64,000 bases of DNA, taken from positions 106,721 through 170,720 of the forward strand of contig VUYT01000037.1 of the NCBI GenBank assembly GCA_008802785.1, given 5' to 3'. This stretch comes from Symmetrospora coprosmae. Lineage: Eukaryota > Basidiomycota > Cystobasidiomycetes > Symmetrosporaceae. The position numbers and the translations under genes were made by a program. The notes under the pieces are model-generated. The model was given only the letters and a program-made list of their open reading frames with translations. It did no database searches and was not told where the DNA came from. Positions 2 to 64,000 of the stretch are shown here, piece by piece (within the stretch, counting starts at the first letter, position 1; each line of letters begins with the position of its first letter).

Positions 2-946
2 ATCTCGCGTGCGCGATTCGAGGAGATCAACGCCACGACCTTCAAGAACACGCTCACCCCGGTCGACAAGGTCCTGAAGGATGCCAAGGTCGCAAAGGAC
101 AAGGTCGACGACATTGTCCTCGTCGGTGGTTCCACCCGTATCCCGAAGATCCAGTCGCTCGTCTCCGAGTTCTTCGGTGGCCGCACGCTCAACAAGTCCA
201 TCAACCCGGACGAGGCCGTTGCGTACGGTGCCGCCGTCCAGGCCGCCGTCCTCACCGGACAGACCTCGGACAAGACCGCCGACCTCCTCCTCCTCGACGT
301 TGCGCCGCTCTCGCTCGGTGTCGCCATGCAGGGTGACGTCTTCGGTGTCGTCGTGCCCCGAAACACGCCCATTCCTTCCAACAAGTCCCGAACCTTCACC
401 ACCGTTGAGGACAACCAGACCACCGTCACCTTCCCCGTCTACGAGGGCGAGCGTGTGACGTGCAAGGAGAACAGGCTTCTCGGCGAGTTTGAGCTTTCCG
501 GCATTACGCCCCAGCCGCGGGGCCAGGCCGAGCTCGTCTGCACATTCGAGGTCGACGCCAACGGTCTGCTCAAGGTCTCTGCTCAGGACAAGACGTCTGG
601 CCGGAAGGCAAACATCACCATTACCAACTCTGTCGGCCGCCTGTCGTCGACCGAGATCGACCAGATGATTGAGGACGCAAAGACGTTTGCACAGGCAGAC
701 AAGGAGTTCACGTCGAGGCACGAAGCCAAGCAGGAGCTCGAGAGCTACATTGCCAGCGTCGAGGCGACCATCACGGGCCCCGAGGCGGGACTCAAGATGA
801 AGCGCGGGGCAAAGGCAAACATCGAGACCGAGCTCGCAAAGGCGCTCGAGAAGCTCGAGATTGAGGACTCGACGACCGACGAGCTCAGGAAGTCGCACCT
901 CACCCTCAAGCGCGCCATGCAGAAGGGTCTCTCCGGCGGCCGATAA
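2..946 (+). CDS. SSB1: Hsp70 chaperone, ribosome-associated Ssb type (3' part only)
   Basis: The window opens inside this gene; 314 codons remain, in one exon, ending at TAA 944-946. Visible parts are the end of the nucleotide-binding domain ([11 protein letters not shown], then [13 protein letters not shown]), the substrate-binding domain ([26 protein letters not shown]) and a short helical lid. It lacks the EEVD tail of cytosolic Ssa and the HDEL of BiP. The residues after VGRLSS and the C-terminal [15 protein letters not shown] stretch fit the fungal Ssb subfamily, which binds ribosomes and folds nascent chains in the cytosol. Codon choice is strongly biased to C/G-ending codons (AAG, CTC, GTC), as expected for a highly expressed gene. 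The neighbour at 1479-4443 is convergent. Family assignment is firm; the Ssb subtype is inferred from the C-terminal sequence pattern. Confidence 0.95.
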
Positions 947-24100: not shown

Positions 24101-24951
24101 GCATCTCGGCCACATCCAGGGCCTTGGCTTCTCGGCCGAACATGGGTCTTTCCTGAAGGAGCCAGGAGAGAAGACATGGAAGAATCTCACCGAGCACATC
24201 GACATGAGCTGGAAGTCGGATGTTGAGGAGATCTTCAAGCATTACGAGGCGAGGACGACGGGCTCTTTCGTCGAGAAGAAGCGAGCGAGCGTCACTTTCC
24301 ACTACCGGAACGCAGATCCCGAGTACGGAGAGTTCCAAGGTGCGTGGGCTCCCTGTCAGCTGTCGAGGTCGCTTCAGGGACAGAATTGACTCGACGACAA
24401 TGTTTTGCTTACCTACAGCGAAAGAGTGCCAAGCTCTGCTCGATACAATGGTCGACAAGCTTCCTATCGATGTCATTGTCGGCAAGAAGAATCTCGAGGT
24501 CCGCCCTGCACACACGCACAAAGGCGAGATTGTCCGGCGCCTCACTTACCAGCATGCCGATGCCGACTTGCTCATTTGCGCTGGAGACGACAAGACGGAC
24601 GAGGACATGTTCCGGGCCATCTTTGCCATCGAGGCCACGGCTCAAGCGAGCGAGCCTACGCTTGTCGTCACACCGCCACCGTCACTTTCCCTCTTCCCGA
24701 GCCTGGCCCAGACTCTGACCATTCCCCTTGGCGTGACCGGCGTCGAGGCTGTCGAGTCGCCGTCGTTGCCTGCTATGCAGGTGCACGACGACGGTCAAGT
24801 CCAGCTTAAAGCGCAGAAGAGCCGCTTCACTGTCGACAACCTCTTTAGCATTGCGGTCATCCCCGCCGGGTCCAGGAAGACGATTGCGCGGTGGCTCCTG
24901 AGCGAGCCCGCCGATCTGCTCGAAGTTCTTGCCGAGCTCGCGGCACAATAG
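21176..24951 (+). CDS. TPS2: Trehalose-6-phosphate phosphatase, GT20-HAD two-domain protein (Tps2-like)
   Basis: Large multi-exon gene. After MPAMAQDQLPAPAWKEDE, splicing yields KVSGRTIVVCHTLPYTCSY, the start of the glycosyltransferase-20 domain. An inserted low-complexity linker follows, then SRVVLTGWLGDVYNV, LWPTFHYLGLPD, WVQDYHLLLVPRMLREKIPG and AIGLFLHSPFPSSEFFRCLP. The GT20 domain continues through GGIGVDAKGNI and SIRDGMNTTSMEYVLCQQ. The HAD phosphatase domain begins LLMFDY-DGTLTPIV, with an intron splitting the second Asp codon of DxDGT, and continues VYIISGRDGDFLDQHLG, FSAEHGSFLK, EVRPAHTHKGEIVRRL and LLICAGDDKTDEDMFRAIF. The nucleophile and the GDDxTDED acid motif are intact. The enzyme dephosphorylates trehalose-6-phosphate in the cytosol. 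The degenerate N-terminal GT20 domain is typical of Tps2 and usually structural. Length is about 970-1,000 aa. A Tps3/Tsl1 regulatory role is unlikely given the intact HAD site. Confidence 0.92.
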
Positions 24952-33595: not shown

Positions 33596-34410
33596 ATGTC
33601 TGGCATCGATGCGCCCGGGGTCCGCCCCATTGTCTTCTTTGACCTCGCTATCGGAGAAACGAGCATCGGGCGGTTGAAGATGGAGCTCTTCAGCGACATT
33701 GTCCCAAAGACTTGTGAGTTCCGCCTGCGGCCGGCGCCTGCCAGAGGACACAGAGGATCCCGCTCAGACATGGCATCCGCAGGCGAGAACTTTCGTCAGT
33801 TGTGTACAGGCGAGCACCGCAAGAACAATGTCCCACAAGGCTACAAGAACGCCATCTTCCACCGAGTCATCAACGATTTTATGTGTCAAGGCGGCGACTT
33901 CCTCAATGGCGACGGCACAGGATCGTTCTCCATCTACGGAGGCACCTTTGAGGACGAGAACTTCATTGCGAAGCATACAGCACCAGGCAGTGAGTCTCTT
34001 GGCCGTCTTTGTAGCTGTCCGGGTCAGCGGAGGCGTGTCTCTGAAGGCGCCCGCATTCTGCAGTGCTTTCCATGGCAAACAGCGGACCGCATACCAATGG
34101 GTCTCAGGTGCGGATGATATGACTATGTAAGAGGCAGGAGAAGGATGAGCTGATGTAGAAACGCACGCAGTTCTTCATCACGACGGCGCCCGCCGACTTC
34201 CTCGACGGAAAGCACGTCGTCTTTGGCAAGATCCTGGACGGTGGAGACAACATGCTCATCTTGCGGAAGATTGAGAACGTACCGACAGGAGCGAACAACC
34301 GTCCAAAGCTGACCGTGCGGATAACGGGTGAGTCTGGTCTGGTCGGGTTGCCGCGCCGTGCCTAAGCTCGCGGGCTGACGCTGCGCATGGCAGAATGCGG
34401 GGAGATGTAA
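33596..34410 (+). CDS. Cyclophilin-type peptidyl-prolyl isomerase, PPIH/USA-CyP type
   Basis: Five-exon gene of about 180 residues. The start [20 protein letters not shown] and the end ITECGEM match human PPIH end to end. The core reads IPV-like [10 protein letters not shown], then [58 protein letters not shown] and [13 protein letters not shown]. The catalytic Arg (FHRVI), Phe and His residues of active cyclophilins are present. Introns are resolved by frame: A-GTGAGT...CTGCAG-TG restores PGMLSMANSG, and the next intron joins GSQ to FFITT. PPIH binds Prp4 in the U4/U6.U5 tri-snRNP, so a role in the spliceosome is inferred. That fits a genome whose genes are all intron-rich. The downstream BCS1 start is only 190 bp away. 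Confidence 0.93.
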
Positions 34411-36267: not shown

Positions 36268-39200
36268 CTATCTGAAACTGGCCTCGGCAGCTTTTGCGTA
36301 CTTTCGGAGGCTGCGGTCTGGTATCTTGACGGTCAGGACGGTAGGCAGAAGGGACGAAGGCGTGAGCAGATCCATCGGGGGATGCAGGAGAATTGGGAGA
36401 AGATCGTCGCTTGTATTGAGAAGCGTGTCTCTGAGGAGATCGAGAATTGACAGGCCGACCCGCAGGACGAGCTTCGAAGACTGCAGGAACCCAAGGTCAG
36501 ACCACCCGGCCAACGCGAGATGACAGCTTGACTTACAGTCTCTCCAAACAGCAGAAGGTCCATTACGCGGAGCAGGGATGACCATGGCAGGACCCGCACA
36601 AACACCGGCAAGAACCAGCCAGATGCAAACATTGTGGCTGTTACGAGAAGTGCAACAGTCAATAGCCGCCCTCGACAGCCTAAATACGATCGATCACAGC
36701 GGACACACCTTCGATACCTTGCTCATGGAGCTTTTTGTGGAGTTTGGGTTCGCTCGTCTTCAGGAGCTTGCCAAGAATGAACGCGTCCACCCGGAAGCCT
36801 CGCATGCTCAAGGTGTAATAGTCCTTGAGGTAGTTGGTTACGATAGAGACAAGCAGCCAGAAGGCACTGGTATACGTGAAATAGCGAGATGTGTCAGCGT
36901 TGTAAGGCAGGCATGCGTATCAGTCGCTCAAAACCTACGATTCGGCCTCGGTATGCAGCAGGAGCACGCCAGTAATAAAGCATAGGCCTTGACAGTAGCC
37001 GATCTCCGGCATGTAATGCGCAAATGCTTTGAGAACTGTGGACAAGTCCACACGGCCCAAGGAGTTCTCGTCCTTGAAGTGCGCGTGGTCGGGACTGCGA
37101 GGCAAGGAGGGGGTCTATCAGCTCCGTCCCGCTCGACAGAATGAACCGCGCGCACAATGTCCGATCTAGGTCTTTCTCGATTTCGGCGTAGCATTCAAGC
37201 TCGTGCCTCCCACATAGATCGTGGTACAGACCCTCTTGACGAATGCTGTCGGTTTCAGCGAGGAAAGCCCAGGCCGATCCGCGCACGCTATTTGGAATCC
37301 CGTATGAAACCAGCTTGCGCATCTTCTTCGACTTCTTCGCTGCCGAGGGCGTCATTGCATTCATGCTTTGTACCCACTTGAGCTCTCTCGCTCGATGCGC
37401 CTCGAGCGCCTTGAGATCCTGCGGTGCGTTCATCTCCAACTCGTCCTCGATCGCGCGCGGATCGTGCTTGTGGATGAAGCCGAATGTGTCCGTCTGCACT
37501 GCTGGCTCAATGTACTGATCTTGTATGTAGATAGAGCGGACGCGCTCTTTGGCTGCAGCAGTCGGCCGAGTTACTAGCAGGCTGGCGCCGAGGCCGCCTT
37601 CGTTGTCAGTCTCGTAATCCAGCGTCGGCGTGCCTTCGCCTGCATCTGACGAGCGAGGAGGCAACACGGACGAACTACTGGCTGCAAGGTCATCCTCTTT
37701 GCTCGCCGAAGCCGCCAGTCTCGTCGAGCTGGGCAATTTGACGAATTCGAACTCGGTGTTGCCGACAATTTGGACGTTCGTCTCGAGCGTGTTATTGTTC
37801 GGAAGCGATGGTCTGCGCCTCGACAGGAGGGAGCCGCTCCTGCTCGTACTCCTGCTGAGTCCGGAGAGGCTGCGGCTATGCCTCATCTTGGTACCGCCTT
37901 CCTTGGACAATAGCGATGGTGTCTCGCTCGAAGGGCTGAAGGCAGGACTCGGTGGAACATCTGGAGAAGGCTGCGAACGACTGCCGAAGTACTCCTTCTG
38001 GTGACCAGACTGGCTTCTATCCAGGGAGGAGCTGCTGTAGAAGCCGTCTGAAGCTGGCGATTGCAGTGGCATGCTTGGGCTGGCTAAGCCGTACTGTACG
38101 GCAGTCATCGGGCTTTGTGGACTGCGCGGACTCGAAGAGCCGAATGATGGCATACGCGACGAGGCTAGATTCCCGCTCGTATAGGCTGGAGATGTGCGGA
38201 AATTCGTTTCGAGCTGCAGGTGTGGCGAGTGCGGACCTTGCTCTACTGCATGCGGACGGTGTGCTGGACTAGCTGGTCCAGATGCAACCCGCCTAGGCAC
38301 GCTGGTATACCGGTTACCGGTACCATTGGCAGTCTCCCCGAGGGCGTTACCGGGAGAGGCGCGGCGAGGAAAGGCATAACCAGTGCTTCCGGGCGATGCA
38401 CGCAATTGCTTGAGGGACATGCCCTTCGGCAGGATTGGCATGGTCGAGGCGCGTGGATCTGCAGTGGCTGGAGTACTGGGCAGTCGTGGACTAGGCGCAG
38501 ATAACCCATCGACTTTCCGACTTTCCGCTGTGCCAGTCGTGGTGATAGGTAGGGGTGCCTGGAGGGTGGCACCGTTCGTAGACTGCTCCATCCGTCGTCT
38601 CAATAGAGAGGCAACGGACCCTCCGGCAGCGTCAAGGGCTGGCTCCACCCGACTCGACGCACCCAGGCCAAGTTCAGCATAGCTTGCGGCAAGCGCGGGG
38701 GCTGGAGTCGACCAAGTAGGCAAGGCGGCATCTATGGAGCCAGCGGAGGAGACAGCCGATTGCTGACTTTTCTGGCGAGCGTGTGCCCCTTCCGAGTGCA
38801 GAGGGATGGCCGATGGCACGGCAGAGTAGCGATACGAGTCGAAGATGAAGTTCTCCGCTTCCGTAGCCGGGGTGTCTGGAGGTCTGTCCTCCCCAGATTC
38901 CGGATCTACGCTTGAGCTGGAGCCTTCACGGTAAGCCGTTGGCGAAGTGGGCTGCCTTCCTTCCATCCCTCTCATGAAGGCTGCTTGGGCCGCCATGGTC
39001 GCGTCCGCATCGCCATCCCCTCGCACTCGCTGGACGCTCTCGGGAAACCCGATCTCGACGGGGGATGCTATGCCTTGGCGCTTTCGGCGGGTTTGATCTT
39101 GTGAAGTATGCTCTAGCCCCGTCGCCGAGGATACGAGCTGTTGTGGAGAGTGTGCGGCTTTTGGCGTCGCGGTCACCGTACCAGCGCTCCAAGGAGGCGA

Positions 39201-40007
39201 CTGGAAGGTCGAAGGACCGCTCTGGTCCAAGGGAGTCGTGGGCGCGTCTTCTGTCATAGGCAGCGGATCCTGACTATGTGCGTCTAGGAGATCCGTAGTG
39301 GACAAGTCTGCAGCATGCTTGCTGTTGCGCCTCGATGTTGGCTGGGTCTTCTGCTCGGCACTGCGCCGTCTACCACTTGCGAGCACGACCTGCTCACGCG
39401 AGCTGCGGCGGTTCTGCGACGAGAACGAGGATGATCTCCGCCCCGGACCAGCCGCAATGTGCTGCACTAGACTAGCCCTCGGCGATGAACCCATCCTGCG
39501 GTTACCATCTGGCGCGGCGCGAGCTAGCCTGTCCCCATCATCATCGAAGGTCGCAACAGTTGGAGTCATCTTGGTATTGGCCGAGCCTGACCTAGACCGT
39601 CTCCGACCTTCCGAAGCGCTCAGGGATGCGGCTGCTGGCGGCTTCTTGGTGAAGACTGGCTTCTTGAGCTTTGTCGTGAAGGTCACCTCGGACTCGTGGA
39701 AGATGCCCACGACCCCTTCGCAGCACCCAAGGTAGACCCCATCGTCTGGTAGATAGGGTAGGCGGTCTCTCATCAGCGGAGTTGTCGGAAGCGACCAGCG
39801 CCACCGGGACTGGGGGCTCCGAGCGCCGCCTCTTGTGACGCGTCGGCTAGACTCACGCAGGAGAGCGAGCACCACGACCTCTTCATCCTCCATGAACATG
39901 AGCTCGTCCGAGTCTGGCTCTGCAAGCTTGTCGACCTTTCCCTTTGCGCGCCCGATACCGCCCTTCTGGCCGAACCGCGACCATTTTCTGTTGGAGGCGC
40001 ATGACAT
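36268..40007 (-). CDS. TBC-domain RabGAP with N-terminal SH3-like segment
   Basis: First exon runs 40007 to 37156 (about 950 residues). Near the N-terminus, DELMFMEDEEVVVLALL and YLPDDGVYLGCCEGVVGIF resemble an SH3 domain. Between them lies an 87-90 nt stretch with GTGAGT and AG borders that is open in frame, so either reading codes. A Ser/Pro-rich disordered middle follows. The TBC domain starts KLVSYGIPNSVRGSAWAFLA. Splicing at TT-GTGCGC gives DLDRT-FPDHAHF, then MPEIGYCQGLCFITGVLLLH, AFWLLVSIVTNYLKDYYTLS, MRGFRVDAFILGKLLK and WFLPVFVRVLPWSSLLRVMD. The last exon holds VLRVGLSILDLLRDTLLN. The catalytic IPxxxR and YCQG fingers are both intact, so it should accelerate Rab GTP hydrolysis. Total is about 1,200 aa. 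ATG 40007 is chosen; the ORF is open upstream to 40160. Confidence 0.88.
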
Positions 40008-40591
40008 GGTGAGGCGGGACAATGTTGAGAGGGAGTACTGTACGTCAGCTCTGTGAATATGGCGGAGTTGACTGCTCCCGGATCCGGCCTTTTGCGACGA
40101 CGGTTGCCGTCGCAGCGTCGGGTCACGTTCGCGGCGGGCGCATCGGAGGCCGAGTCGCATTGCAACTTACCTCAGAGCAGGGGCGGAAAGCGGCAGCTGT
40201 ACGTAGCTGTCAAGTACAATGCCTGCTGTGCCTGCTGATGGTGCTGATGCTACTGATGCTGCCATGCTTGGAGCTGGGAAAGTGTCCTGCGCGTGCGTCG
40301 GTTGGCGTGCTTTTGGCCGAACCGGATGGGCGATCTTGTGTCACCAGATTGCCATAGGGAGCGCGCAACTATTTCATTGTGGTAACTCTGCAGAAGCTGG
40401 TCTGTCTGACGTGGCCGCTGCTGCTGCAAATACCGCCATGGTGGGTCGGTCAGATTCCAGCGAGCCAGCACGCGTCAGGAGGGAGGGAGAGAGCATGCGT
40501 GCACGAGCCTCCTCGAAATCATCAGCCCCGTGTCTGGTCCTGCTTCTATACACCTGCCCACCCACGCACCACACTTATCTAAGCAGGCAGG
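40008..40591. promoter_or_regulatory. Divergent promoter region, TBC gene and CCT8
   Basis: 584 bp between two divergent start codons. The ORFs here are short and overlapping. No defined element is claimed. Confidence 0.5.
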
Positions 40592-42787
40592 ATGGCACTC
40601 AAGATTCCAAAGAGGTCAGTGGGATGCATTCTGCTGCAGGTATTGCGGTGTTGCTGCGCTCCTCAAGCTGACGCCGGCCTCTGCGCATCTGAATTGCACG
40701 CGAGCAGCGGGCCGTCGCTCTTCAAAGATGGTCAGTTCGGGGCACAGGAGCACAGGATGCGGACAATGAAGGACAGCAAGGACTCCTGCTCACTTTATCA
40801 GATGCTGACAGCTCGCTGCTCTTGCCTGCCTCGCCTCGCACAGGCTACACCTTCCAGTCGGGCATCGAGGAGGCCGTCATTCGAAATATCCAGGCAGTGA
40901 GCCAGATCACTGAGATTGTCAGGACATCCTTCGGACCCAATGGCAGGAACAAGATGGTCATCAACGTGAGCTTTTCCACAGCAGAGACGCGAGGACCGCC
41001 CTCCGGCCCGCCCTCGCTTGCCCGGCTGTCGCTGTACTCGCGAGCAGCCCCGGTCTGTGCCTGACTGACCACCTTGTACCGACGTCAACTGCACAGCACC
41101 TGGACCGCCTCTTTGTCACCAACGATGCCGCTACCATTCTGCGCGAGCTCGAAGTCGTCCACCCGGCGGCGAAGGTCCTCGTTATGGCTAGCCAGCAGCA
41201 GGAGGCGGAGGTAAGCCTTCTTCGTCGGACGCGCTTCACGCCCTGAGCTCATGTAACGAACTCGCTCGCAATGATTCAGATTGGAGACCGGACAAACTTC
41301 GTCTTGATGTTCGCTGGCGAGCTGCTCAAGAAGGCAGAATACCTGCTCACCATGGGCTTGCACCCGAGCGAGATCATCAACGGCTATGAGCTCGCCAGGG
41401 ATCAGGCAGAAGAGGCTCTCAAAGGTGAGGCACACCAGCGCGACTTGCTTCCATCAGCTACGGCTCTAACGCAGCGGCTCTCCCATCCAGGCCTGAAGAT
41501 TCGGACGCTGCCCATGCCCTTGACGACGGAAACTCTGGCTACACCGCTCCGCACAGTCCTTGCCGCCAAGCAGTACGGCAGCGAAGACTTGCTGGCCAGG
41601 CTAGTCTCCGAAGCGTCTCTCCTCGTCATGCCATCGAAGACGTCAGAGTTCAACGTTGACAACGTCCGCGTAGTCAAGATCATGGGAGGCAGTCTCGAGA
41701 ACAGCAGGGTCATCAAGGGGATGGTATTCGGCAGGGAGCCGGAAGGGACCATCAAGAAGGTCGACAAGGCCAAGGTCGGCATCTTCACCTCTGGTGTTGA
41801 TGTTGCGCAGACCGAAACAAAGGGCACCGTCCTCTTGAAGAACGCCGACGAGCTTGTCAACTTCAGCCGAGGAGAGGAGAAGCATCTCGAGAAGGTCATC
41901 AAGGAGATTGCCGACTCCGGCATCAATGTAGTTGTTGCTGGCTCGTCAGTCGGAGAGCTCGCCATGCACTACCTCAACCGCTACAACATCCTCCTTATCA
42001 AGGTGCTCTCCAAGTTCGACCTACGCCGTCTCGCTCGAGTCGTCGGCGCAACGCCCCTCGCACGGCTGGGAGCCCCTACAGCAGAGGAAGCTGGAAGCTG
42101 CGAGGTTGTCGAAACTGTCGAAATCGGCGGCGATCGCGTCACTGTCTTCAGGCAGGAGAACGAAAAGACGCGGACGGCTACCATCGTCGTCCGTGGCGCC
42201 ACCACCAACCGAATGGACGACATCGAGCGCGCTATCGATGACGGAGTGAATGTTGTCAAATCTATCGTCCGCGACCCACGCATCATCCCGGGGGCAGGAG
42301 CGACAGAAGTCGAGTTGGCAAAGAAGGTTGCCGAACTCGGAGAGAAGACGCCCGGCCTCGCTCAGCACGGCATCAAGCGCTTTGCAGAAGCTCTCGAGGT
42401 CGTCCCACGGACCCTGGCTGAAAACGCCGGTCTGGACAGCACCGAGATCATGAGCGCGCTATACTCGCACCACCAGGCAAGCGAGGAAGGAAGCATGGGT
42501 GTCGATGTAGAAGGCGACAACGGCGGTATCGTTGATGCCGCGAAAGAGGGCATCTTTGATCTCCTCGAGGCGACGCAGTGGGCAATCCGGTACGGTACCG
42601 AGGCTGCCATCAACGTTCTTCGGGTTGACGTAGGTCTCGCGTCTCGCGCATCGTCTCAGATGGAGCTGGAGAGGGTCACCGCTGACGCCTTGTCCCTTCA
42701 CCACATCCGTTGCAGAGCATCATCATGTCAAAAGCTGCGGGCATCGCGCCTCCCAAGCAGCAGGGTCACTGGGATGACCAAGACTAG
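40592..42787 (+). CDS. CCT8: CCT8, TCP-1 chaperonin subunit theta
   Basis: Multi-exon gene. Splicing gives MALKIPKSGPSLFKDGYTFQ, then QITEIVRTSFGPNGRNKMVI, HLDRLFVTNDAATILREL and KVLVMASQQQEAEIGDRTNF. The apical and C-terminal parts follow: VKIMGGSLENSRVIKGMVFG, NYILL-like RYNILLIKVLSKFDLRRLAR, IIPGAGATEVELAKKVAELG and ALEVVPRTLAENAGLDSTEI. A last intron (donor GTAGGT at about 42628) joins LRVD to SIIMSKAAGIAPPKQQGHWD. The assignment to theta rests on the VMASQQQEAE-type region, the PGAGATE form also found in yeast Cct8 and the IIM(S/A)K(A/P)AG C-terminus. The conserved GDGT nucleotide motif reads GDRT here. CCT folds actin and tubulin in the cytosol as a sixteen-mer. It shares a 585 bp divergent promoter region with the TBC gene. 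Confidence 0.95.
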
Positions 42788-43023
42788 ACCATGTCCTCGA
42801 ATTGTAGTGCAAGAGGTGGAGCGTGCAAAGAACGTTCACGTCTTGCGGAATTAATGTTGCAGCTTCCGCTGTGCGGGTCGTGTATCACCCTAGCTTCTCT
42901 TGCTACATCACCGCCACGGCGACATGGTCGCTTGGGAGAAGAGGCTCTTCTGTTCGGCCAGAGTGCCGCAGCTATCTTCCCGGATGCGATTGGCCTAACA
43001 TTAAGTGGGAGATTAGGCACATC

Positions 43024-44493: not shown

Positions 44494-44965
44494 TGCTTTG
44501 GTGATGTGCTGCTGTCAGAGCGAGATAGCGTGTTGTAGTAGGAGTTACGAGGAGTCAAGTGGAGCGGAGAAGACAAGCGGAGTGGCTGAGAAATGCAAAA
44601 GACAGCTTGCAGGGAACGCATCGCGCAGGCAATGTAGGACCGGCTTGAGCACAGCCGTGGAGGCAGCTTATGCACTGGCAGGAGTACGCGAAGCTGTAAA
44701 CCCTTCACTGACTCGACTCGTGCTGTCCTGCGTACATACTGAAACACGTGCCCTGAGGGTCGCGGTCATGCGGCGGGCGGTCATGGATGCGACGACGTCG
44801 ACAGGTGGCCAGGGTGCATAACTTCGAGCAGCTAGAGAGAATACGGTTGTTCATCCTCTTTCCATCTCCATCTCTGCCAGCCTGCCGTCCAGGCAGTATT
44901 CCGGTGCTCCTGTCCACTCCGCGACCAAGTCCCCGTGGACTTTGCCCTCCCACCATCCGTCGCAA
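44494..44965. promoter_or_regulatory. Divergent promoter region, OMA1 and coiled-coil gene
   Basis: 472 bp between divergent starts. No specific site was recognised. Confidence 0.4.
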
Positions 44966-47900
44966 ATGGCTTCGTCCACCGGCGCCCAGGCCGGGCAGTT
45001 CGATGACTTCTTCAAAGCAATGGCCAAGAGGAAGCTCTCCGTCACCGACATTCTCAAGTACTCTACTGCGAATAATGCGCCTGCTGAAGCAGAGACTTCG
45101 TCGACACGCGTTGTACTGGACGAGCAGCAGGGTCGCGCGAAGAAGAGGCGGAAGCGCCGTCAAGTCCAGGGAGGTAGTAACGACGACAGTGCCGTTGCCA
45201 GTCGCACCGGATCTCAGTCAGCTGCATCACCCATGCCTGAGTCCACGGGCGCTGCTGTGACGCCATGGCCCGCCCAAGCCTCTCCTGCATCTTCGGCAAG
45301 ACCCGCTGTCTCGGTCGCTGCGAAAGCAGCTGTAAAAGCCGAGCGGAAACGGATCAAAGCAGTGGAGAGGGCGCGACTGAGAGCCCTGGAGCGCCTCAAA
45401 GAGCAGCAGCAGCAGACAGACGGAACGCCCCGACAATTGCAGGCGCATGAGCGGCAGGACTCGGATACCGAGCGAGCCCAGAGGCTCAAGCAGGCCAAAG
45501 AGGCGGAGAAGGCAGCAGAGCGGGAAAGGCAGGAGCGGAAAGCGGAGCGTACCAAAGCCCAACAGCAGCAGAAGGAAGAAGCGGCGCGGCTCGAGCAGGA
45601 GCGGCAGGAGCTTGCACGAGCGCAGGAGCTGAAGCAGGCTGAGGATGCGGCAGCAGCTCAAGAGCAGGAAAAGCGGGAACGTAAAAAGCGGAAAGCGCAG
45701 AGACGCGAAGCTCGAGCGCAGAGGAAGGCGGAGAAGGTAGCCAGGAAAGAGCGCAAGGAAGTTGAGCGGTTGCAGCAGGAAGCTCAAGCTCGGGAGGAAC
45801 GCGAGCGCGCGGAAGAGGAGCGACGCGAGCGGGAAGAGGAAGAGGAGCGTCAACTTGAAAGCGAACGCTTACGCCTGCAGGCAGAAGAGGAGGCGCGCGA
45901 GCGGCGTGCCGCGCAAGAGCGCGCTTTCGAAGAAGCCAAAGAGAAGGAGCGCGCCCACTTCGCCGAAAAGGCGAGACTCAAGCTGGAAGCAAGCAGGAAA
46001 CGCGAAGACACGAAGCGCGAGGAAGCGAAGCGCAAGGAAGCGCAACGCGAAGCACGCAAATGCGAAAAAGCGGAACGCGCTCGTGCCCTTGAAGAAAGGC
46101 GAATTGCGGATGAGGCTGCTCGGAAGGCTGAAGAGACAGCCAAGGAAGCAAAGACGCTAGCTCGAGCCGATAGAAGGAAAAAGAGGGAGTCCACCGGCAC
46201 CTCCAGCGCTGCCAAGGCGAAGCCGATGCGTGCACCTTCCACGGCTGCAAGCGATGCGTCAGATGGCGAGGGATCCGAGGGGTTCGAGCCAGATGAGACA
46301 CATCGCGCGACACGCGGACTCACGCAGAGTGCACATGCCGAGAATCGAAATGCCGCAGATCCTGGCGGAAGTTTGCTGGCCGACAGCGACTGGGAAGAAC
46401 AGATTCACCTGATTGATGAGGACAAGGACTTCTTCATGCTCGACCTGCCCCTTCCGGACTGGGGAGAGGGGGCTTACATCTGTCAGCTACCTCCGATGCG
46501 CGACCCAACAAGGACACAGGACGAGTCATCAGCCGGAGTGCCTAAGGGAGCCAGGGTACCTTTGGAAGCGTCACACCTCGCGCATGGAGGCACACCTTCC
46601 GCCAAACAGCCAGCCTTGCAACAAGCTCAGGCACCCATGATTCCGTCTACGAAACCCCACGCGAAGACAATCGAAGTCGTTGTACCCGTCAGTGTCTCCG
46701 CTAGCTCGCGCAAGGAGGCGGTCAATCGCATTCCGCCTTCTCAAGGTGATCAGAACGAAGTAAAGTCTACGGTTCAATCGCTTCCCGCGTCAGCAGCGGA
46801 CCAGATGGCACGGCCGCTATCTCAGGCGACTCCTCTTGCGCACGATGACGCCAGTGATATTGCTGCAACCCACACTCCCACAACAGTCACAACTCCAGTC
46901 CCGGACTTAATGGCCATCACGCAAGTGCCGGAAGACACGCCAGCGCAGGATGCGCATGCGGCGGAAGACACGCCGGCACAAGAGGGCGCTGTGCAGTCGG
47001 AAGTCCTACCAGACGTAGGCCAGTCTGGTTCGGCAGACCTTGCCTTCGATTGCCTCGCGCAAGCAGCGCCGCGCTCTACATCGTCACTTACGCAGCAAAT
47101 GACCGGAGAAGAGATAGATGTGCAGCTTCCAGAGGCCGGTAAACCATCAAAGCCGAACGCTGTGGGATTGTCAGATGTGCCCGCAGAGCGGGCTGGAGCC
47201 GAAGGCGTGGACCTCGACGAGGTGGATGAGTTGGAGGACGAAGACGAGACAGAACAAAGCGCACCTGCCGAATCGGAATCTGCGGCTGTGGCAGTTCGGG
47301 CCTCGGCTCCGTCCGACGGCGGAGCCTCGACGAGCGGACAGCCTGTGGCGGATGGGCCCGATGGGGAGGGGGTCGCCACCTCGCCTTTCCCTGGCCCTGC
47401 GAGCTCGCCTACCGATAACACTCAGCCGGCATCGGCAGGCGATGCGATGGCAAGCACAGCTTCATCTCCGGCCTCATCAGAATCAGTGGATGAGCCAGGC
47501 ACAGACCAGGCCGCCGACAGGCCGTCTGCGGCAGCGGTCCAAACCGCTAAGACCTCAGCAGGCACCGAGGTGCAGCTTTCAGTGCTCGCCACAGATGCAG
47601 ACGATACTCACGCCAGCGCACGCGAGCGCGAGGATCCGTCACCTGCCTCTACGACCGACGCTTCTGAACCCGTGCAGACCAGTATGGCTCCTCCTAGTCT
47701 CGATCAAATAGTAAGAGCCGATAAGCCCAATGTCGTCGTCGACACCCCCACCGACAGCACCTTCGACATGGACGTCGACGCCAACATCCCAGCGGCTCCC
47801 GACCACTCACCTTCGCCACGAGCATCAACGCTTTCGCCTGCACAAGCTACCGCGCCGGTCCCATCTTCCCCTACAAGTTCGCAGCGCCTTAAGCCGAGCG

Positions 47901-50247
47901 TTAGTCAATTGCTCGACAGCCTCGAAGACGAAAGTAGCGCATCTTCCAGCGATAGTGAGGAGGAAGATGATGGTTACCTAGAAGATCAGCCACAGCCAAA
48001 CATCAGCATATCGCAACGCAGACGCTATGCAGCTAGCTCGTCCCCCGAGCTTGATGGTGCGAGCGATGCAGGCTCCATCCAGCACGAGGTGAACCCGCCG
48101 CAAGGGTACGGTCCGGCATCGACTGGAATGTTCGCCCCGACCCTGCACGATACGCAGTCTGCAGCAGGCGAGGAGGAGAGGGACGCATCTCCGCCTGCAG
48201 TGACCTCTCCCGCTCCTGTAAGCCCCGCAGAAGTGAGGCAATCGTCTGTCTCCTCACCGCAGCAAGTTGAGCCAAAGGCTCAAGCCGCCAATGATCGAGA
48301 GCAGGACGCAACGTCTCCGGCAACCAGCGCGCTCGAGTCGGCGCCCCATCGCGGAAGCGCATTGGAGACCGACGACGCCGTCCACGCCAGACCAAGTCCA
48401 GCCACATCTAGCCAGCGATCTGAATCCCCTCAGATGGCAGCGGTGCTGCGCTCTCCTGCTGCGGCTTTCGAGGAGACCAGCCTACCCGTCTCAATCCCTC
48501 CGACGAGTGCGGCGGGCGTCGAGACTTCCAATGGGGCTGTCAACAATCCACCGAAGGCTTCGATAGCGAGCATCCTAGACGGCAATACAGGGCAGCCATA
48601 TGCAGAGGAGCAGCAGCTACCGGCAGAGCGCGAGATGCCCTCGTCTGAAGCGCACCTAGGCAGCGCGATCGCACAATCCGCACCGGTAGCAGCTAGCGAC
48701 AATGTGGAGAGCCTGCCCGAGCAGATGGATCTTGGAGGCGGGGATAGTGCCATAGACGAGGAGAAGACCGCGGTACCGCTCCACACCCTGTCCGAGACAC
48801 AGTCTCCAGAGTCGCCGATTCATCTCCCGACGCCATCCAAGCCAGTGTCTCACGCCTCAGGTTCTTCCATGCTGGAGAGTATCCGGCAGCGGCGAAAGTC
48901 ATTATCGTTACAAGACGAGAGTGCAAGTCAGATGTCGCAAGACTTGCTCAACGACATGCGCGGATCCCCTGGATCCGCAAATGGCACTCTCAGCCTCAGC
49001 CCATCGGAGACGACTCAGGTGTGTCCCATTCGCGCAGGTCCCGCGTTTTGCCCTGCTGCACGCGCTGAACTGTACCGATGCCGCACAAGCAGGCGCCCGA
49101 GTTCCGGGTCCAGCCACCTTCCACACACAAGACTACACAGCACCGCGTTATGTCTCCTCCTCCTTCTCCTCGTCGCTCACCGAGGCTGGCCTCAGCATCA
49201 CCTGGGATCTATCCAAGCCTAGCTGAACTTCGAGACGAAGCACCTGGCCTGGCCAGCTCGCAGATATTATCCACAGCTATGGGGAATGGTCTAAAAAATG
49301 GCAGACCTACTATGACGGAAATCGACCTGCAAGAAACACCTCCCAGCATTGTCACAGGCTTCGACACCAAATCGCAGATCGACGCCTTGGACTCACAGCC
49401 ATCAATGCCGGAAGATCCGCCGCCCTTCTCGCCAGCCTTGAGCGCGAATGTTTCCGGTTAGTCTTTGACCACGGTTAGGCAGTGTCGTTATGGTCTGAGC
49501 AGAGGGCCGTCTTCACACAGGATCTGAATCACTCGAGGTTGAGCAAGCGCTTGTCAAGAAGGCTCTTTTCAGGGCGAGCTCCCTGCACGACAAATCAGAC
49601 GGTTCTAGCAGTGCGAGCGACGACGAGCGGGCTGCCTCGGGCTCCTCGGACTCCGAGTCTGGCAACAATCAAAACGGCCACTCTTCGTCGGGGAGCCTCG
49701 CTAACCGTGGCCGAGGCCAGGCGCTGCACCCCGACAGTAATGTCCGGAGTATGCAGGTGAGGATCTTGGCTATGCCCGACACAATCGTTGAGACGCTGAC
49801 TGGAGCGCTATAACTTCCCAGCACACGACCCTCAGTGCTCGTCTGGGTGGCGGGGCGGCTGGACGACCGTTCTTCTTCATGGGTGCCCCAAGCAAAGCAA
49901 CCACTTCCACGCCTACAGCTGCCAAGACGGCTGCCATCGCTTCCGGGTCCGCACCTCCAAAACTCAACAGGTTCGGCAGCTTGACCCAACAGCACGCGGA
50001 AAGAGGTGCCCGCCGGCGTCAGAGCACGTTCAGCTCGCTTGCCTCGCAGGCTTCTCAATCCCAGCAGATCCGTGCCAATGGCAATCAAGCCGATTCTTCG
50101 TCGGATAGCGATGGAGACGATTCAGAGGACGAGGGCCCGTCGGCCCCAGCGAGTGGCGTTCCAGCAGGGAGACTCGCGGGATCGTCAGCAATGCCCACTC
50201 GCTCCTCGCCGAGAAAGAAGTCAGGCCTCGCTATATTCGGGCGCTAG
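44966..50247 (+). CDS. Large coiled-coil and Ser/Pro-rich protein, unknown function
   Basis: Four exons (44966-49018, 49090-49456, 49521-49756, 49822-50247) sum to 1,693 codons plus stop, with phases that agree at all three junctions. The N-terminal 45 residues (QFDDFFKAMAKRKLSVTDIL) are the most protein-like ordered part. A basic cluster (AKKRRKRRQ) could be a nuclear localisation signal. Residues of about 120-410 form a long Glu/Arg/Lys/Gln helix (for example LRALERLKEQQQQ), predicted as a single coiled coil or charged alpha-helix. The rest is acidic/Ser/Pro/Ala-rich and disordered, with many SP/TP sites (SPPPSPRRSPRLASASPG) and Asp/Ser clusters. Near the C-terminus GRPFFFMGAPSK stands out. 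I do not recognise the family; nuclear or cytoskeletal scaffolds fit. The in-frame ATG at 44942 is an alternative start. Confidence 0.82.
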
Positions 50248-52327: not shown

Positions 52328-52755
52328 GGTGGAAACGGTTGCGGCTGTTCGAGAGGGTTGAGAGGGTTTTGGGTGAGGGAACAGGGTCAGCGCTCGCTGC
52401 GACGGCCGCGGTGCCTGGCCGTGCCTGCGGATGACGCAGAGCAAGACCGCCTAAGATTGCAAGTAGCAGAGCGAAGCACTCACAGGTGGGGATACTGGAT
52501 ATGAAATGTGCTTCTAACAAATGCTCTGGTGGGTTACCGTATGGTGAAAACGAGGGAGAACAGGACCCGCCCTGCGCTGCCTTGGACTGCGATCGCCCTC
52601 ACATCATGCGGAGGAGCCTGCGGGGAGGTCCTGCCTCTCCGCCGGAGTATTTCTCGCAATCATTCGTAGCGGAACAGACGGCCGCCAGCATGAGGGCTGC
52701 TAGAAACACAACAACAGACTGCTACTCTCTACACAGCCGAAATTCACAGCGGTAT

Positions 52756-58419: not shown

Positions 58420-61400
58420 ATGCCCGTAGCCGTCACTTCCCCAAGTGGCCAACGCGTCCTGCACAAGCGCAACAGCAGCACCATCCTCGACAGCAACGGC
58501 CAGAATATCCATCACCACAGCAGAGCCAGCAGCGTCGCATCAACTCCAGTCGCAGCACCTCATACTTCACCGGGATACTTTGGTACAGGAGCTTCTGCCT
58601 CATCAACCACAGTTGACAAGCCCAGCTCAAAGATGAGGAGATTCCCCAGCATCCTGTCGAAATCGGACAACAGACGGTCCACGTCTTCATCTTCCTCCTC
58701 CTCAGCTGCAGCTGCTGCCACGACGCAGCCCAAGCAGCACGGGCGCAGCCTCTCGCTCGCTTCCGCCTCTGGGCTACCTCGCCCGGCCGCAGGAGGTACG
58801 GCTCCGCCAGTCCCCGCTGCTGGCATGCCGACAAGTGTTAGCCAGCCTTCCATATCCAAGGCGGCAGATCCTGCAGGCGGGAGCCCTCGCTCGTCGCCAG
58901 CCTCGTCACTCAGGAAGGGCGGCCCCGGTGGATCCCCCGCACCATCTCCAGCTACGTCGCCTTCGCGCATCCCAGCGTTGTCGTCCTCGGCTGGAAGAGG
59001 CGGGGGCCGCGATACGCCCAGTGGACACGTCAAGTCGCAAAGCGATGTTTCTGGGTCGTCAACTTCGCCGGTGACCGCAGTGCTCGGGGAGGCCCCGACA
59101 TCATCCGCCTCGTCTGGCATCGGTCTGGGCATCCCCAGAAGTGCCAGCGGAATACCCAGGCTCAGGCAGACGTCTGACCCAGCCCAAGGTCCGGCACTGG
59201 GCATATCGCAAGCACTCGACGGAGATCAGCCATCGGCGGAGGCGGCCCTTCCTCAGGTGAGCTTGAAGTGGGCACGATACGCCAAGCCGGTGCTGCCAAA
59301 CTGATAGACAGTCTGCTTGTAGAGTTCACATGCGAAGAGTCCATCCGTCTCGGGCAGTGGGACGTCCAGAACATCAGTATCGCGAGCCCCTCTTCCCTCT
59401 CCACCCGTCGCAGCGGCTGCGCAAGCTGCAGATGCAGGAGTTCCAGCAATGTGGAGATCCAATTCATACGAGGGCACGACAAAGGCCTTTCTAACGACAT
59501 CGGCATCCATGGCGCGCGATATTTCTGCATCTAGCTCGGGCTCGACGCGCTCCTACGTCGGCACCGCCGGCCTCGCCGAGCTCGAGAAGCAAGAAGGCCA
59601 AGCGCCGGCCATCAGTCATCGCCTCAAGCTCATACGCCAGCTCGTCACTCTCCGCAGCGAGAAAGTTCTGGACGGTGTGGACATCGAGAAGGTCGTCTGG
59701 CTCGAGGGAACGAATCTGCACATGACGACAGAGGAGGAGCTAGCGGTCAATTTGCCTTTCTTTCGCTAGTGAGGTTAGCGGACTTGCGTCGCTGACCAGT
59801 GCCAACCCTCCTACACAGATGGCCCGCAACGGCAGTGTCGTCAGCAGCTCTACGACTGCATCGCCATTGCCGGCTAACACCACTGCCAGTCCAGCTACGC
59901 CGGAACAGCCAGCCTCAGTGTCAACGTCTGCCAGGCCGCCTGTACCGACTCAACCGAAGAAGCAGGGCCTCTTCCACAAGCTGGCGCATTTGGGATCCGA
60001 TAAAGGCCATGCCCGCAAAGATAGCATGGGATCTGCTATGGGAGAGACAGATCCAAAAGCGACCAGCATGATCTCGGGTACGGCACCCCTTGCAGCTTCA
60101 TCCACTCCAGAGACTCCGGCTCTCAGCGCATCCCAGACTAGAAACCGTGGACCTATCTTTGGCGTGAGGATATCCGAAGCACCTCCGTTGGCCTACGCCG
60201 TCTCTATCATCGGTGGTCAACGTCATCAGCTCCCGATCCTGGTCTTCTCGCTCGTGGAAGCCATCTTCCGGCGTGGCATCGAAACCCCTGGCATCTTCAG
60301 GATGAACGGGGATGCTGCAGCCATCAGCCGCCTTATCGCCGTCTACAACACCTACCCTTCTTACGGCGACGACATCAATCTCGACAACGAGACCCTGTTC
60401 ACCCTATGCGATCTTCTTAAGCGGTATCTGAAGGACCTGCCCGAGGCTGTCATGAGCAGGGAGCTCTGGCAGCTCTTCATTGCGACCTGTCTCACCGGAG
60501 CGGACAGCGAGCACGACAAGCAGCTTGCGTCAGCTCAAATCATCTTCCGGCTGTGAGTCGGATCCATAATATGTATATTCGATGCCTCTAGCTGACGAGA
60601 GTGCCCTTGACAGACTACCTCGGAAGAACATGTCGTTACTCATCTATCTCACCGCATTTCTATTCCAACTGCCACTCAACCCGTCCAATAAGCTCACCAT
60701 AGAATCGATATCCGTCATCTTCGGCCCTGCTATCCTTGCACCGCGCGACAGTGCGAACGATCGACCCGCGCAAGATGGCCTTCGCTGGCTGCTCAGCAAC
60801 TGGGACGATTCGCTCAGCCAGGATCTGCTCGATGAGGAATATGACCCTCTCGAGTCCCCGGTGATCCAGTACTCCCCGCAAAAGATGGCTGTGGTACAGG
60901 TCAACTCTCCCGCATTCTCAATGGCAGCATCGCCAATGGTTGCCGATCAGCCAAGCGAACCAGGTCACAGCAGCGCGTCTGACCGCTCTCCCATTCCGGA
61001 AGGATGGGGCGAGGCTATCTCGCCAATGGAGGACGACGCTATCCTGCAGCAGCAGCAGCTCAACAGCAGGGCGCGCAAATCTAGCTTCAACCTGGATCCG
61101 GACATCTCGGACAATGGTCCGCTTCTGCCGGTTGCTACAGGTGATGTCGAGCCCGTCAAGGAACGCTCTGTGAGGTCGACAACCTCAAGCCGTTCACTCA
61201 GGGATCTCAAGGACGGCCAGCCTCAGGTTCATCCCACGACTTCCATGCCGTCTGTGCGGCAACCTGCGCCTGCAGAGGAGATCGGGGCAACAGCCACGGA
61301 GACGGACGGGAAGCGCGCATCGCGTCTGCAATCTCGAAAAGAGGTGCTTCTGAACGAGGAAGGGCGACAGTCCAGCAACTCGAGTAAGTCCTGGCCGCAG

Positions 61401-61998
61401 CTCTCTGAGTCCGCCTTTCTCTGTACTGACGGTCTAATCATTCTAGCCTTCGGGTACGGCAGGCCTGCATCATACGATGCTTCTAGCGATTTCTGTCAGT
61501 GCGCCTCCCGTCCTCCGCTCGTGCTGCTGCCACTGCTGACGACAAGCTTCGCCAGCCTTCTTCCCAGACGAATTAGCGCAAGATCCCAATGCCGCGCGCC
61601 TCTTCGGAAGTCTCGGCGAACTCTTCATGAATGAGAGGAGGAAGGTATCGGAGTCGCAGCAGCAGCTAAGGACTCTGGAGGCCAAGACATCCGCGGACGA
61701 TGATCGCATTCTCCAAATGCAAAGGGATCTCGAAAGTGCAGCTGCGCGCTCTCAGCAGACGCAACAATCCTTGACGGAGGCAGAAGCAATCATTCAGCAG
61801 CTGAAGGAGCAGCTTAAAGATGGCGAAGACCTCCGGATCAATTTGCTCAATGAAGCAGAAAAAGCACGGGAAGAAGAAAAGACTGTTCTCCTCGTCGAAA
61901 TCTCGACTCTCAAGGATCAGGTCCGTAACGCAACGGAGGAGAGGGATCTGGCCAGAAGTCAGCTCGCCAAGATTAGATCATTCCTAGCTAGTGACTGA
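58420..61998 (+). CDS. RhoGAP protein with Ser-rich N-terminus and C-terminal coiled coil
   Basis: Last gene before the telomere. The N-terminal about 450 residues are Ser/Pro/Ala-rich and disordered. The RhoGAP domain reads GPIFGVRISEAPPLAYAVSI, LPILVFSLVEAIFRRGIETP-GIFRMNG (arginine finger in GIFRMNG), LFTLCDLLKRYLKDLPEAVM and NMSLLIYLTAFLFQLPLNP. A second disordered stretch and a C-terminal coiled coil follow (RRKVSESQQQLRTLEAKTSA, ESAAARSQQTQQSLTEAE, VLLVEISTLKDQVRNATEE). Introns: one at about 59255-59325 (joins PQ to SSHAKSP) and one before 59820. The latter has two possible borders: an intron from a GTCAAT donor, or a 31-nt intron from GTGAGG giving FFRYANPPTQMARN. Others lie near 60555, 61384 and 61495. 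The GAP site is intact. Rho/Cdc42-type target and site of action are not readable. Confidence 0.87.
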
Positions 61999-63902
61999 GC
62001 ACGGTGTCTATAGACTCACATATACCTATTTCTACCTACCTAATCTACTTGATGATCACGACAAACTGCAGTGTGTTGCGCCGGTTGATGAGTGAAAGGC
62101 ACCGCCGCCACGCAATCAGGCGCTTTGAACAAGGCGCGCGTGACGCAAGCAGTGCATTAGTGTAGTCTTTCTAGGTACGTACTGGTGAGGGTGAGGGGAC
62201 CTTTTCCTCTCTAAAAAGCGGGCTCGGACTTCCGAGCGCTCGCCAGGCTCCCAAAGGATGAGCTCGGACTTCCGAGTGTTGTCGGTGTGTGAGCGGAAGC
62301 GAGAGCGCGAAGTTCCAACTTGGTTCGATGTGGTCGCTGGGTTTGCGTGGCAGCCCACGACTTCGCCCGGACTGTCAGCCTTTCCGTCGTGTAGCATAGA
62401 TGATTATGTATAGATGCAATGGTAGATGTGTTCAAAGGTAGATAGGCTGCAACATAGAGATCCATAGAGCACGGTGACGCGTGTACATAGGTGCCTCCGG
62501 AGCATTACCGAGACACGTGCATTGCATATAGAAAGTTGAATATAAGTGGGATGTACAAAGACAAGAAGCGAATGAGCAATCGATCAAAGCTATATCCTGT
62601 GTACAATTTGAGCTCAGCAATGCATTCTCACGCCAACGTCTTCGACGCGTTTCCGTCCTGCTTGACCTTTCCCGCCTGCGGCGCGCTCGGGTCGGAGTTT
62701 ATCCGAACTTTCCGTGGCGAGCTCAGCGAGCGCCAGGACTGCTCGGGGCACGCCAGCGCAGGGCTACAGTGGTCCAGCAGGCAAAGCCGCTGACCACATC
62801 GACCAATGTCAGCAAGTATGCCTCGACAGGCGATGGGCCAGACTCCTCTCCTGTCATGGGCACAGGCTGACGACCCACCTGGGTCGTCGCTGGGCCAGCG
62901 GTTCGGGTGAACTTGCGGCACGTGACCGCCAAAGTTGGTCCAACCGGACCAACTCAGCGAGCGCCCGCCCTCGCCCGCCCCCTCCCCTTTGCTCTCCCGC
63001 CAATCATCAGCACCGGTCACTGTGACCGTCTACCCACCCTCCTGTCCGCACACAGCCTCATCGCTGTGCTGCCACCAGGAGGGATGGTCCTCCTTCCACA
63101 CCCCCCATCAGCACCCTGCGTGGGGTTAGAGCGCTCCACCCGACCCAGCAATCTATGGCGCCTCGACCTCCACCCCGACCCCGACCCGACCCGACAATGA
63201 GAGCACACTCAACAAAGCAGCATGAACAGCAGCAAGACCAGCAGCAGTGCCCAATGGCCTGCCCTCAACAACAAGCCGCAAGACGAGCTGGCTCCTCCTC
63301 CCGCCCTTCACAGCCTTCGGGCTCTTTTCACCTTGTTCCCTTTCCCTCGCGGCTTTGCGCCACCCACACTTTCTACCCAATATACAGACTAAGCCTCAGT
63401 CGTCCTTAGGGAGGATTGGGCTGTGTCTCTGTTAACCTTCCTCCCTCATTGTCGCCCTGCCCTCATTGTCCCTGTCGGGCTACAGGGTTTGCCACTGGCA
63501 GAAGACTGGGCAGACACCAGCAAAGGCTGGCAGGGTTGGGCAGAGAGTGGCGGAGATTATGGTGCAGGGGGCAGGGGCCTGCGGGTCAAGCAGAGGTCAA
63601 GGCAGACGAGCTTACAGATGATTCGGAGTGGGCAGGGCTCAAGCTCTAAGCTTGACAGGGGTTACCGAGGGGGCAGAGGGTCTTGCAGTACGGCAGGACT
63701 TGGGCAGAGGTTCTGGACTTGAGTTGCTGAAGGCAGAGGTGGACTATAGTCAAGGAGTTGTGGCAGGTGTAGGCAAGGGGCAGGGTCGACTAATAGCAGA
63801 GGAGGGTAGTTGCTATTATTTACTGAGGTTCAGAACTGGAGAAAAGAGAAGAGAGAAGAGAGGCACAACGAGGCAGAGCAGTATTTATATCTTTTCTGGT
63901 CT
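61999..63902. other. Subtelomeric region without a convincing gene
   Basis: 1.9 kb between the last gene and the telomere. It contains a CCGAC tandem run (63171-63195), a purine tract (about 63838-63863) and the G-rich GGGCAG region. A weak minus-strand coding candidate at 62628-62932 (MTGEESGPSPVEAYLLTLVD with a hydrophobic helix, then KVRINSDPSAPQAGKVKQDG) would need a 29-nt intron to join its two frames; I do not annotate it as a gene. Confidence 0.55.
63470..63790 (+). repeat. Subtelomeric G-rich region with degenerate GGGCAG-type motifs
   Basis: The motif GGCAG, often as GGGCAG(A/G)G, recurs many times on the same strand that carries the telomeric G repeat (for example TTGGGCAGAGAGTGG and GGTGTAGGCAAGGGGCAGGG). 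Spacing is irregular. It may be a degenerate subtelomeric satellite. Not coding, since the overlapping ORFs are only low-complexity. Confidence 0.6.
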
Positions 63903-64000
63903 GGGGGGTTTTTTGGGGTTTTGGGGTTTTTGGGGTTTTGGGGTTTTGGGGTTTTGGGGTTTTTGGGGTTTGGGGTTTTTGGGGTTTTGGGGTTTTGGGG
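63903..64000 (+). repeat. Telomere: T(3-6)G4 repeats, mostly TTTTGGGG
   Basis: After an initial run of six G (63903-63908), 11 units run to the last base. Each has exactly four G; the T tracts are 6,4,5,4,4,4,5,3,5,4,4. The G-rich strand reads 5' to 3' toward the right end, as a right telomere must. The constant G4 with variable T length is what a telomerase with slippage in the A-tract of its template would make. The array ends exactly at the window edge, so it may be longer. Confidence 0.9.

Follow-up and report, generated by a model that had tools for sequence, protein, structure and literature searches.

The DNA analysed here, a stretch of 64 kb to which we refer as the window, ends at its right edge in short tandem repeats of the T4G4 type, and the octamer on which they are built, TTTTGGGG, is given for ciliates in two reviews (PMC9498494; PMC6410037). 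The locus raises the question whether a fungal chromosome ends at this position and, if so, which repeat its telomerase adds.

The terminal repeat array

The right edge of the window comprises two features:

63903-63908, plus strand: G6 junction leading from the unique DNA to the first T run
63909-64000, plus strand: array of 92 nt with 11 T(3-6)G4 units arranged head-to-tail

The last 98 bases of the window consist of GGGGGG followed by the 11 units, and the array stops exactly at base 64000, which is the final base of the window. The T runs are, in order, 6, 4, 5, 4, 4, 4, 5, 3, 5, 4 and 4 nucleotides long, and the G run counts four nucleotides in every unit (11/11). Comparing the variability of T and G inside the array gave p = 0.087 when the junction unit was omitted and p = 0.035 when it was included. 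The G-rich strand is oriented 5′ to 3′ toward the right end of the window, as expected of a telomere, and short tandem G-rich repeats running in this direction up to the end are what characterizes a telomere made by telomerase. Tandem Repeats Finder reported positions 63911-64000 as 11.0 copies of TTTTGGGG with a score of 148. The pattern G4T4G4T4G4, with up to three mismatches allowed, matched 16 times in the window, always inside the array, while 0.01 matches were expected from 100 shuffles; a chance origin of the array is therefore excluded. Direct reading, Tandem Repeats Finder and the shuffles thus all bear out the original observation of 11 terminal T(3-6)G4 units with an invariant G4 in the right orientation.

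Outside the array TTTTGGGG does not occur in the 64-kb window. The sequence TTAGGG is present once on each strand, singly and never in tandem, and is absent from the array, none of whose units (0/11) contains an A. Likewise TTAGGGTTAGGG is absent from the 64-kb window, which accordingly does not display a canonical fungal TTAGGG telomere.

The array adjoins fungal nuclear DNA

The genes that were most informative about the origin of the window are the following:

2-946, plus strand: 3′ part of an Ssb-type Hsp70 gene, by comparison with solved structures
21544-24948, plus strand: segments of a trehalose synthase/phosphatase gene (Tps2-like)
33596-34410, plus strand: CypH-type cyclophilin gene with five exons, read by eye with the standard code and ending in the stop codon TAA
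34864-36183, plus strand: coding segment of the mitochondrial chaperone BCS1
41247-42851, plus strand: coding segment of CCT subunit theta (CCT8)
59819-61634, plus strand: segments of a RhoGAP-domain gene, found with Pfam; no gene is recognisable between it and the end

For the Hsp70 segment two of the top chains are named SSB1 (419 and 390 bits) and one is unnamed (387 bits), the next chain scoring 305 bits. CCT theta scored 450 bits with its best chain against 415 bits for the next one, and BCS1 reached 459 and 458 bits with its best chains against 398 bits for the following one; the top-scoring chains for CCT8 and BCS1 are presumably those of budding yeast. The cyclophilin gene has four GT-AG introns of 63-74 nt and encodes a full protein of 180 residues, for which the best solved match is a U-snRNP-associated cyclophilin (269 bits). 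A GT-AG intron of 61 nt is also found in the RhoGAP gene at 60553-60613; we take this gene to be Bem3-like. Other genes supported by Pfam code for a STAS-domain protein, a DUF1674 protein, an EF-hand protein, a peptidase M19, an SDR, a GT49 glycosyltransferase and eIF2A, and there are two RhoGAP genes in all. At the gathering thresholds Rfam detected one tRNA in the whole window, which ARAGORN classified as tRNA-Gly. Judged from these genes, the DNA surrounding the array is nuclear and fungal, its short introns being of the GT-AG type, and the array is joined to it through the G6 junction. That the array is fused to clearly fungal, intron-rich DNA had been claimed before, and this held up with the Hsp70, CCT8 and BCS1 genes and with the introns of the CypH gene.

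The trehalose phosphatase segment matched 5dx9 with 85.6 bits, 5dxl with 56.9 bits and 5dxi with 48.2 bits. We take these structures to be from Cryptococcus neoformans, Aspergillus and Candida, respectively, the latter two being ascomycetes. This one comparison with solved structures hints at a basidiomycete as the source of the DNA.

Two very long open reading frames are located at 36897-40166 on the minus strand (1090 codons) and at 44942-49219 on the plus strand (1426 codons). With Pfam at an E-value of 0.05 these two frames gave no match, except for one hit below its cut-off.

The quality of the underlying sequence has to be considered, since base calling might have created the variation, or even the motif itself, from a true repeat that is a uniform T4G4 or something else. 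Some long-read chemistries are prone to errors in homopolymers, and ten runs are a small sample. The G runs, however, are constant (11/11), and open frames of 1426, 1090, 535 and 439 codons along with the intact five-exon gene argue against a sequence ridden with indels. Moreover, the telomere miscalls of nanopore sequencing (TTAAAA, CTTCTT and CCCTGG types) presumably do not yield T4G4. Among the alternatives weighed in this study we regard a consensus error as the least probable.

The approach to the array

Between the last gene and the array two further regions were distinguished:

62000-63460, no strand assigned: interval separating the last gene, which by our own reading ends near 62 kb, from the G-skewed block
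63461-63900, plus strand: subtelomeric block with a G skew of +0.38 and 14 GGCAG sites on the G-rich strand

The G skew amounts to +0.41 in 63501-63750 and to +0.69 in the last 250 bases, the array included. In the other sampled windows of 440 nt the skew is at most +0.35, with one extreme of -0.39. When 440-nt windows were taken elsewhere at steps of 20 bases, none held more than five GGCAG sites on either strand, against 14 in the block. In 2000 runs of a first-order Markov model fitted to the block there were 3.5 sites on average and never more than 12. The spacing of the sites clusters near multiples of ten with a best period of 10.2 bp for 13 sites and of 10.1 bp for all 14. For any period between 8 and 60 the p-values of this phasing are 0.016 (13 sites) and 0.018 (14 sites), the motif having been chosen post hoc. 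As a lead, the GGCAG sites might lie on one face of the helix beside the telomere. We also considered the block as a minisatellite and rejected this because there is no significant autocorrelation. Rfam gave no match in 61900-64000 up to E = 1, nor did Pfam for the ORF at 62631-63029 (minus strand), the sole ORF searched within 62000-63460.

These observations bear on the possibility that the contig continues beyond the window, in which case the T4G4 units could be a microsatellite inside it or the relic of an old telomere fusion. The array, however, has the right strand orientation, runs exactly to the last base and is preceded by G-skewed sequence without a recognised gene; in addition, a given stretch of 98 nt, within which a random cut would have to fall, makes up only about 0.15% of a 64-kb tile. 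We therefore judge an interstitial array to be improbable, though not quite as improbable as a consensus error, and the end of the window is likely to be the end of the contig. A chromosome end at this position agrees with the orientation, with an array that extends as far as the last base and with the lack of recognised genes in front of it.

We also looked in the window for a telomerase RNA and for telomere proteins. Outside the array the only permuted T4G4 template of 10 nt is CCCAAAACCC at 52364-52373 on the minus strand, in a pyrimidine-rich stretch upstream of the SDR gene. As a telomerase RNA this site was rejected as a chance occurrence, 0.33 sites being expected for the eight permutations on both strands. 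Among the 32 distinct ORFs given to Pfam (36 submitted), which cover part of the window, no match to a telomere-protein gene was obtained.

Comparison with T4G4 ends of ciliate type

The array shares the core octamer T4G4 and the outward orientation of the G-rich strand with the macronuclear telomeres of hypotrichs (TTTTGGGG; Oxytricha, Euplotes). Unlike these telomeres, it is 92 nt long, has T runs of 3-6 nucleotides and is attached to gene-dense fungal DNA with standard stops. Hypotrich nanochromosomes are short, usually carry a single gene, have telomeres at both ends and use reassigned stop codons. The window, in contrast, is 64 kb long, contains many genes and has its left end inside the Hsp70 gene, and uses TAA or TGA to terminate its conserved coding segments, so that no stops appear to be reassigned. 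The T4G4 array also departs from strict regularity, with five of the 11 T runs differing from four nucleotides (junction run included).

For a quantitative comparison, public contigs were fetched by an exact match to (TTTTGGGG)3, which gave 2 stretches in viral_contigs and 87 in genome_contigs, that is 89 loci. Visual inspection assigned them to two kinds, telomere ends resembling those of ciliates and repeats lying inside bacterial contigs; a fungal relative of the window was not recognised in this way among the 89 loci. As a yardstick we used the 46 locus ends with uninterrupted arrays of at least three units, which may derive from short-read assemblies. This counting rule missed three ends, namely those of L032 and L042 with two clean units each and that of L088 with mixed units. 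The seed favours regular arrays; the window contains the same seed and would pass the same filter.

In the 46 public ends the T runs are exactly four nucleotides long in 138 of 140 cases, and the same fraction (138/140) applies to the G runs. The public arrays have a median length of 30 nt and reach 66 nt at most, compared with 92 nt in the window, a comparison which may be limited by short-read assembly. When the junction run is omitted, 4 of 10 T runs deviate in the window and 2 of 140 in the public ends (Fisher p = 1.5e-4). Omitting seed and junction by one rule for both sets leaves 3 of 7 deviant T runs in the window and none of 48 in the public ends (p = 0.0013). At the rate of the public ends the probability of at least four deviant runs among ten is 8e-6. 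The T5-T4 pattern of the array had no match in viral_contigs or in the 89 loci. A gapped pattern containing N retrieved at least 120 scattered stretches and was discarded as uninformative. At E = 1e-4 the open frames of the window with at least 60 residues gave three matches to the 89 loci; two of them came from the BCS1 segment, and the third was short.

With these data it can be asked whether an assembler fused a ciliate telomere onto a fungal contig. Macronuclear T4G4 ends are plentiful in mixed samples, and public bins do contain contaminating contigs with such ends that are apparently ciliate nanochromosomes, which lends the idea some substance. However, the public arrays are nearly always regular and do not exceed 66 nt, while the array of the window is long and variable with 4 of 10 internal T runs deviating, and for this reason we disfavour a chimera with a ciliate nanochromosome. 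The absence of the T5-T4 pattern from viral_contigs and the 89 loci and the scarcity of matches between the window frames and these loci (only three at E = 1e-4) likewise speak against it. A chimera is unlikely in our view, although we give it slightly more credit than an interstitial array.

The right end of L088, where TTTTGGGG units are mixed with TTTTAGGG units, touches on a further possibility: T4G4 may be confined to a variant zone near the subtelomere, with another repeat such as TTAGGG lying unassembled farther out. Variant units are common in the proximal parts of telomeres in other organisms. In the window, however, all 11 units are of one type, none contains an A and the G4 is invariant. 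A proximal variant zone thus seems rather improbable to us, ranking between an interstitial array and a consensus error.

Some of the public loci deserve a comment in their own right. The array is present at both ends in 12 of the 89 loci, and in all of these 12 the longest open frame becomes longer when only TGA is read as stop. The gain is about two-fold or more in six of them (L011, L032, L043, L046, L078 and L089) and hardly any in others, and for L044 and L048 a larger gain results from reading TGA through. Since fewer stops must lengthen frames anyway, this points only faintly to a ciliate origin of the two-ended loci. Twelve JARLIC010 contigs of 3-5.5 kb (L005, L006, L022, L026, L028, L029, L043, L044, L048, L055, L058 and L080) have T4G4 at one or both ends and belong to a bin labelled Candidatus Paceibacterota, at least part of which looks like ciliate nanochromosomes. 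Similar T4G4 contigs are found in bins labelled Dojkabacteria (L013, L046, L078) and Chloroherpeton (L011). Among the IMG/VR sequences listed as viral, L001 carries T4G4 at both ends and L002 at one end; both are probably ciliate macronuclear DNA.

Telomere motifs in other fungi

The TTAGGG telomeres of basidiomycetes, as in Ustilago maydis and most surveyed species, are likewise short G-rich repeats at a fungal chromosome end. Unlike them, the units of the window lack A (0/11), contain G4 and not G3 and have a variable T count. Salmacisia, presumably a relative of Tilletia, also has TTAGGG telomeres. This motif is reported for Ustilago (PMC10035886) and for Salmacisia (PMC10849329), and TelFinder found motifs in 21 Basidiomycota which are mostly TTAGGG (PMC10100673). 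The earlier statement that most of these fungi use TTAGGG consequently stands for most surveyed basidiomycetes and needs qualifying, since TTAGGA and TTAGTG in Malassezia, TTGGA in Hericium and TTAGGGGG in Agaricus have been reported (PMC10100673). The variants of Malassezia, Hericium and Agaricus bisporus set a precedent for a motif change in basidiomycetes; none of them is known to be T4G4 or is reported with a variable T and a fixed G run. Putative templates of the telomerase RNA in Malassezia agree with its telomere motifs (PMC12506658). Fungi with TTAGGG telomeres use Myb proteins specific for this sequence, e.g., Tay1 and Trf2 (PMC7952879).

A fungal T4G4 telomere was not among the literature matches listed, for which the motif was partly optional and supplementary tables were outside the scope, so that a buried report is possible. 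Strings resembling the motif turned out to be of another nature in the matched passages: retroelement-telomere junctions of Pyricularia and not a telomere of T4G4 type (PMC8381367), a quadruplex in an Aspergillus gene (PMC8209732; PMC12686049) and a primer (PMC9165886).

Variation of a homopolymer has a parallel in the telomeres of the Schizosaccharomyces pombe and Cryptococcus type, in which the G run varies. There, too, a single homopolymer varies, as an ambiguous register on the template would give, but these telomeres vary G, whereas the array of the window varies T and keeps G fixed.

A probable chromosome end with T(3-5)G4 repeats and its putative template

Taken together, we think it likely that the window ends in a fungal chromosome end, probably of a basidiomycete, to which telomerase adds T(3-5)G4 and not TTAGGG; this reading relates to the one end examined. 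The finding extends a known kind, the variant telomere motifs of fungi, and does not open a new one.

The fixed G4 and the variable T count, 3 to 5 apart from the 6 at the junction, would fit a re-alignment within an A-run of the template, as far as ten runs allow such a reading. We infer a telomerase RNA template of the form 5′-A(m)CCCCA(n)-3′. In each round of synthesis all four C would be copied, so that the G count is always four, and synthesis would come to a halt within the A-run on the 5′ side. The T residues just added would then re-pair with the 3′ A-run, where identical bases permit several registers, and because of this register ambiguity the T count could wobble between about m and n. 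An internal A-run of the template flanked by C on both sides would, on the other hand, fix the T count as in the regular public ends. The template slippage in an A-rich segment that had been proposed for the varying T count can in this way be narrowed down, as an ambiguous re-alignment of the primer's T tail in the A-run would be all that is needed. We predict that the array is bound by telomere proteins, both duplex and single-strand binders, that have become adapted to T4G4.

Beyond this one end we lean, by a small measure, toward a wider picture in which T(3-5)G4 has replaced TTAGGG across the whole genome in a lineage of basidiomycetes, the alignment region of the template is a bare A-run, proteins of the Trf/Tay1 type and Pot1 have been re-specified or replaced, and the phased GGCAG block serves as an auxiliary binding platform. 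A change of the telomerase RNA template across the lineage is a prediction, and so are its consequences, among them the altered Taz1/Teb1-like and Pot1 proteins proposed earlier. The pattern of fixed G and variable T leads to a specific and checkable prediction on the permutation of the template. If the wider picture is true, a lineage whose repeat lacks A would offer a natural experiment on how the telomerase RNA, the duplex binders and Pot1 change together, and its convergence on the ciliate octamer would bear on the question which G-rich repeats can cap chromosomes.
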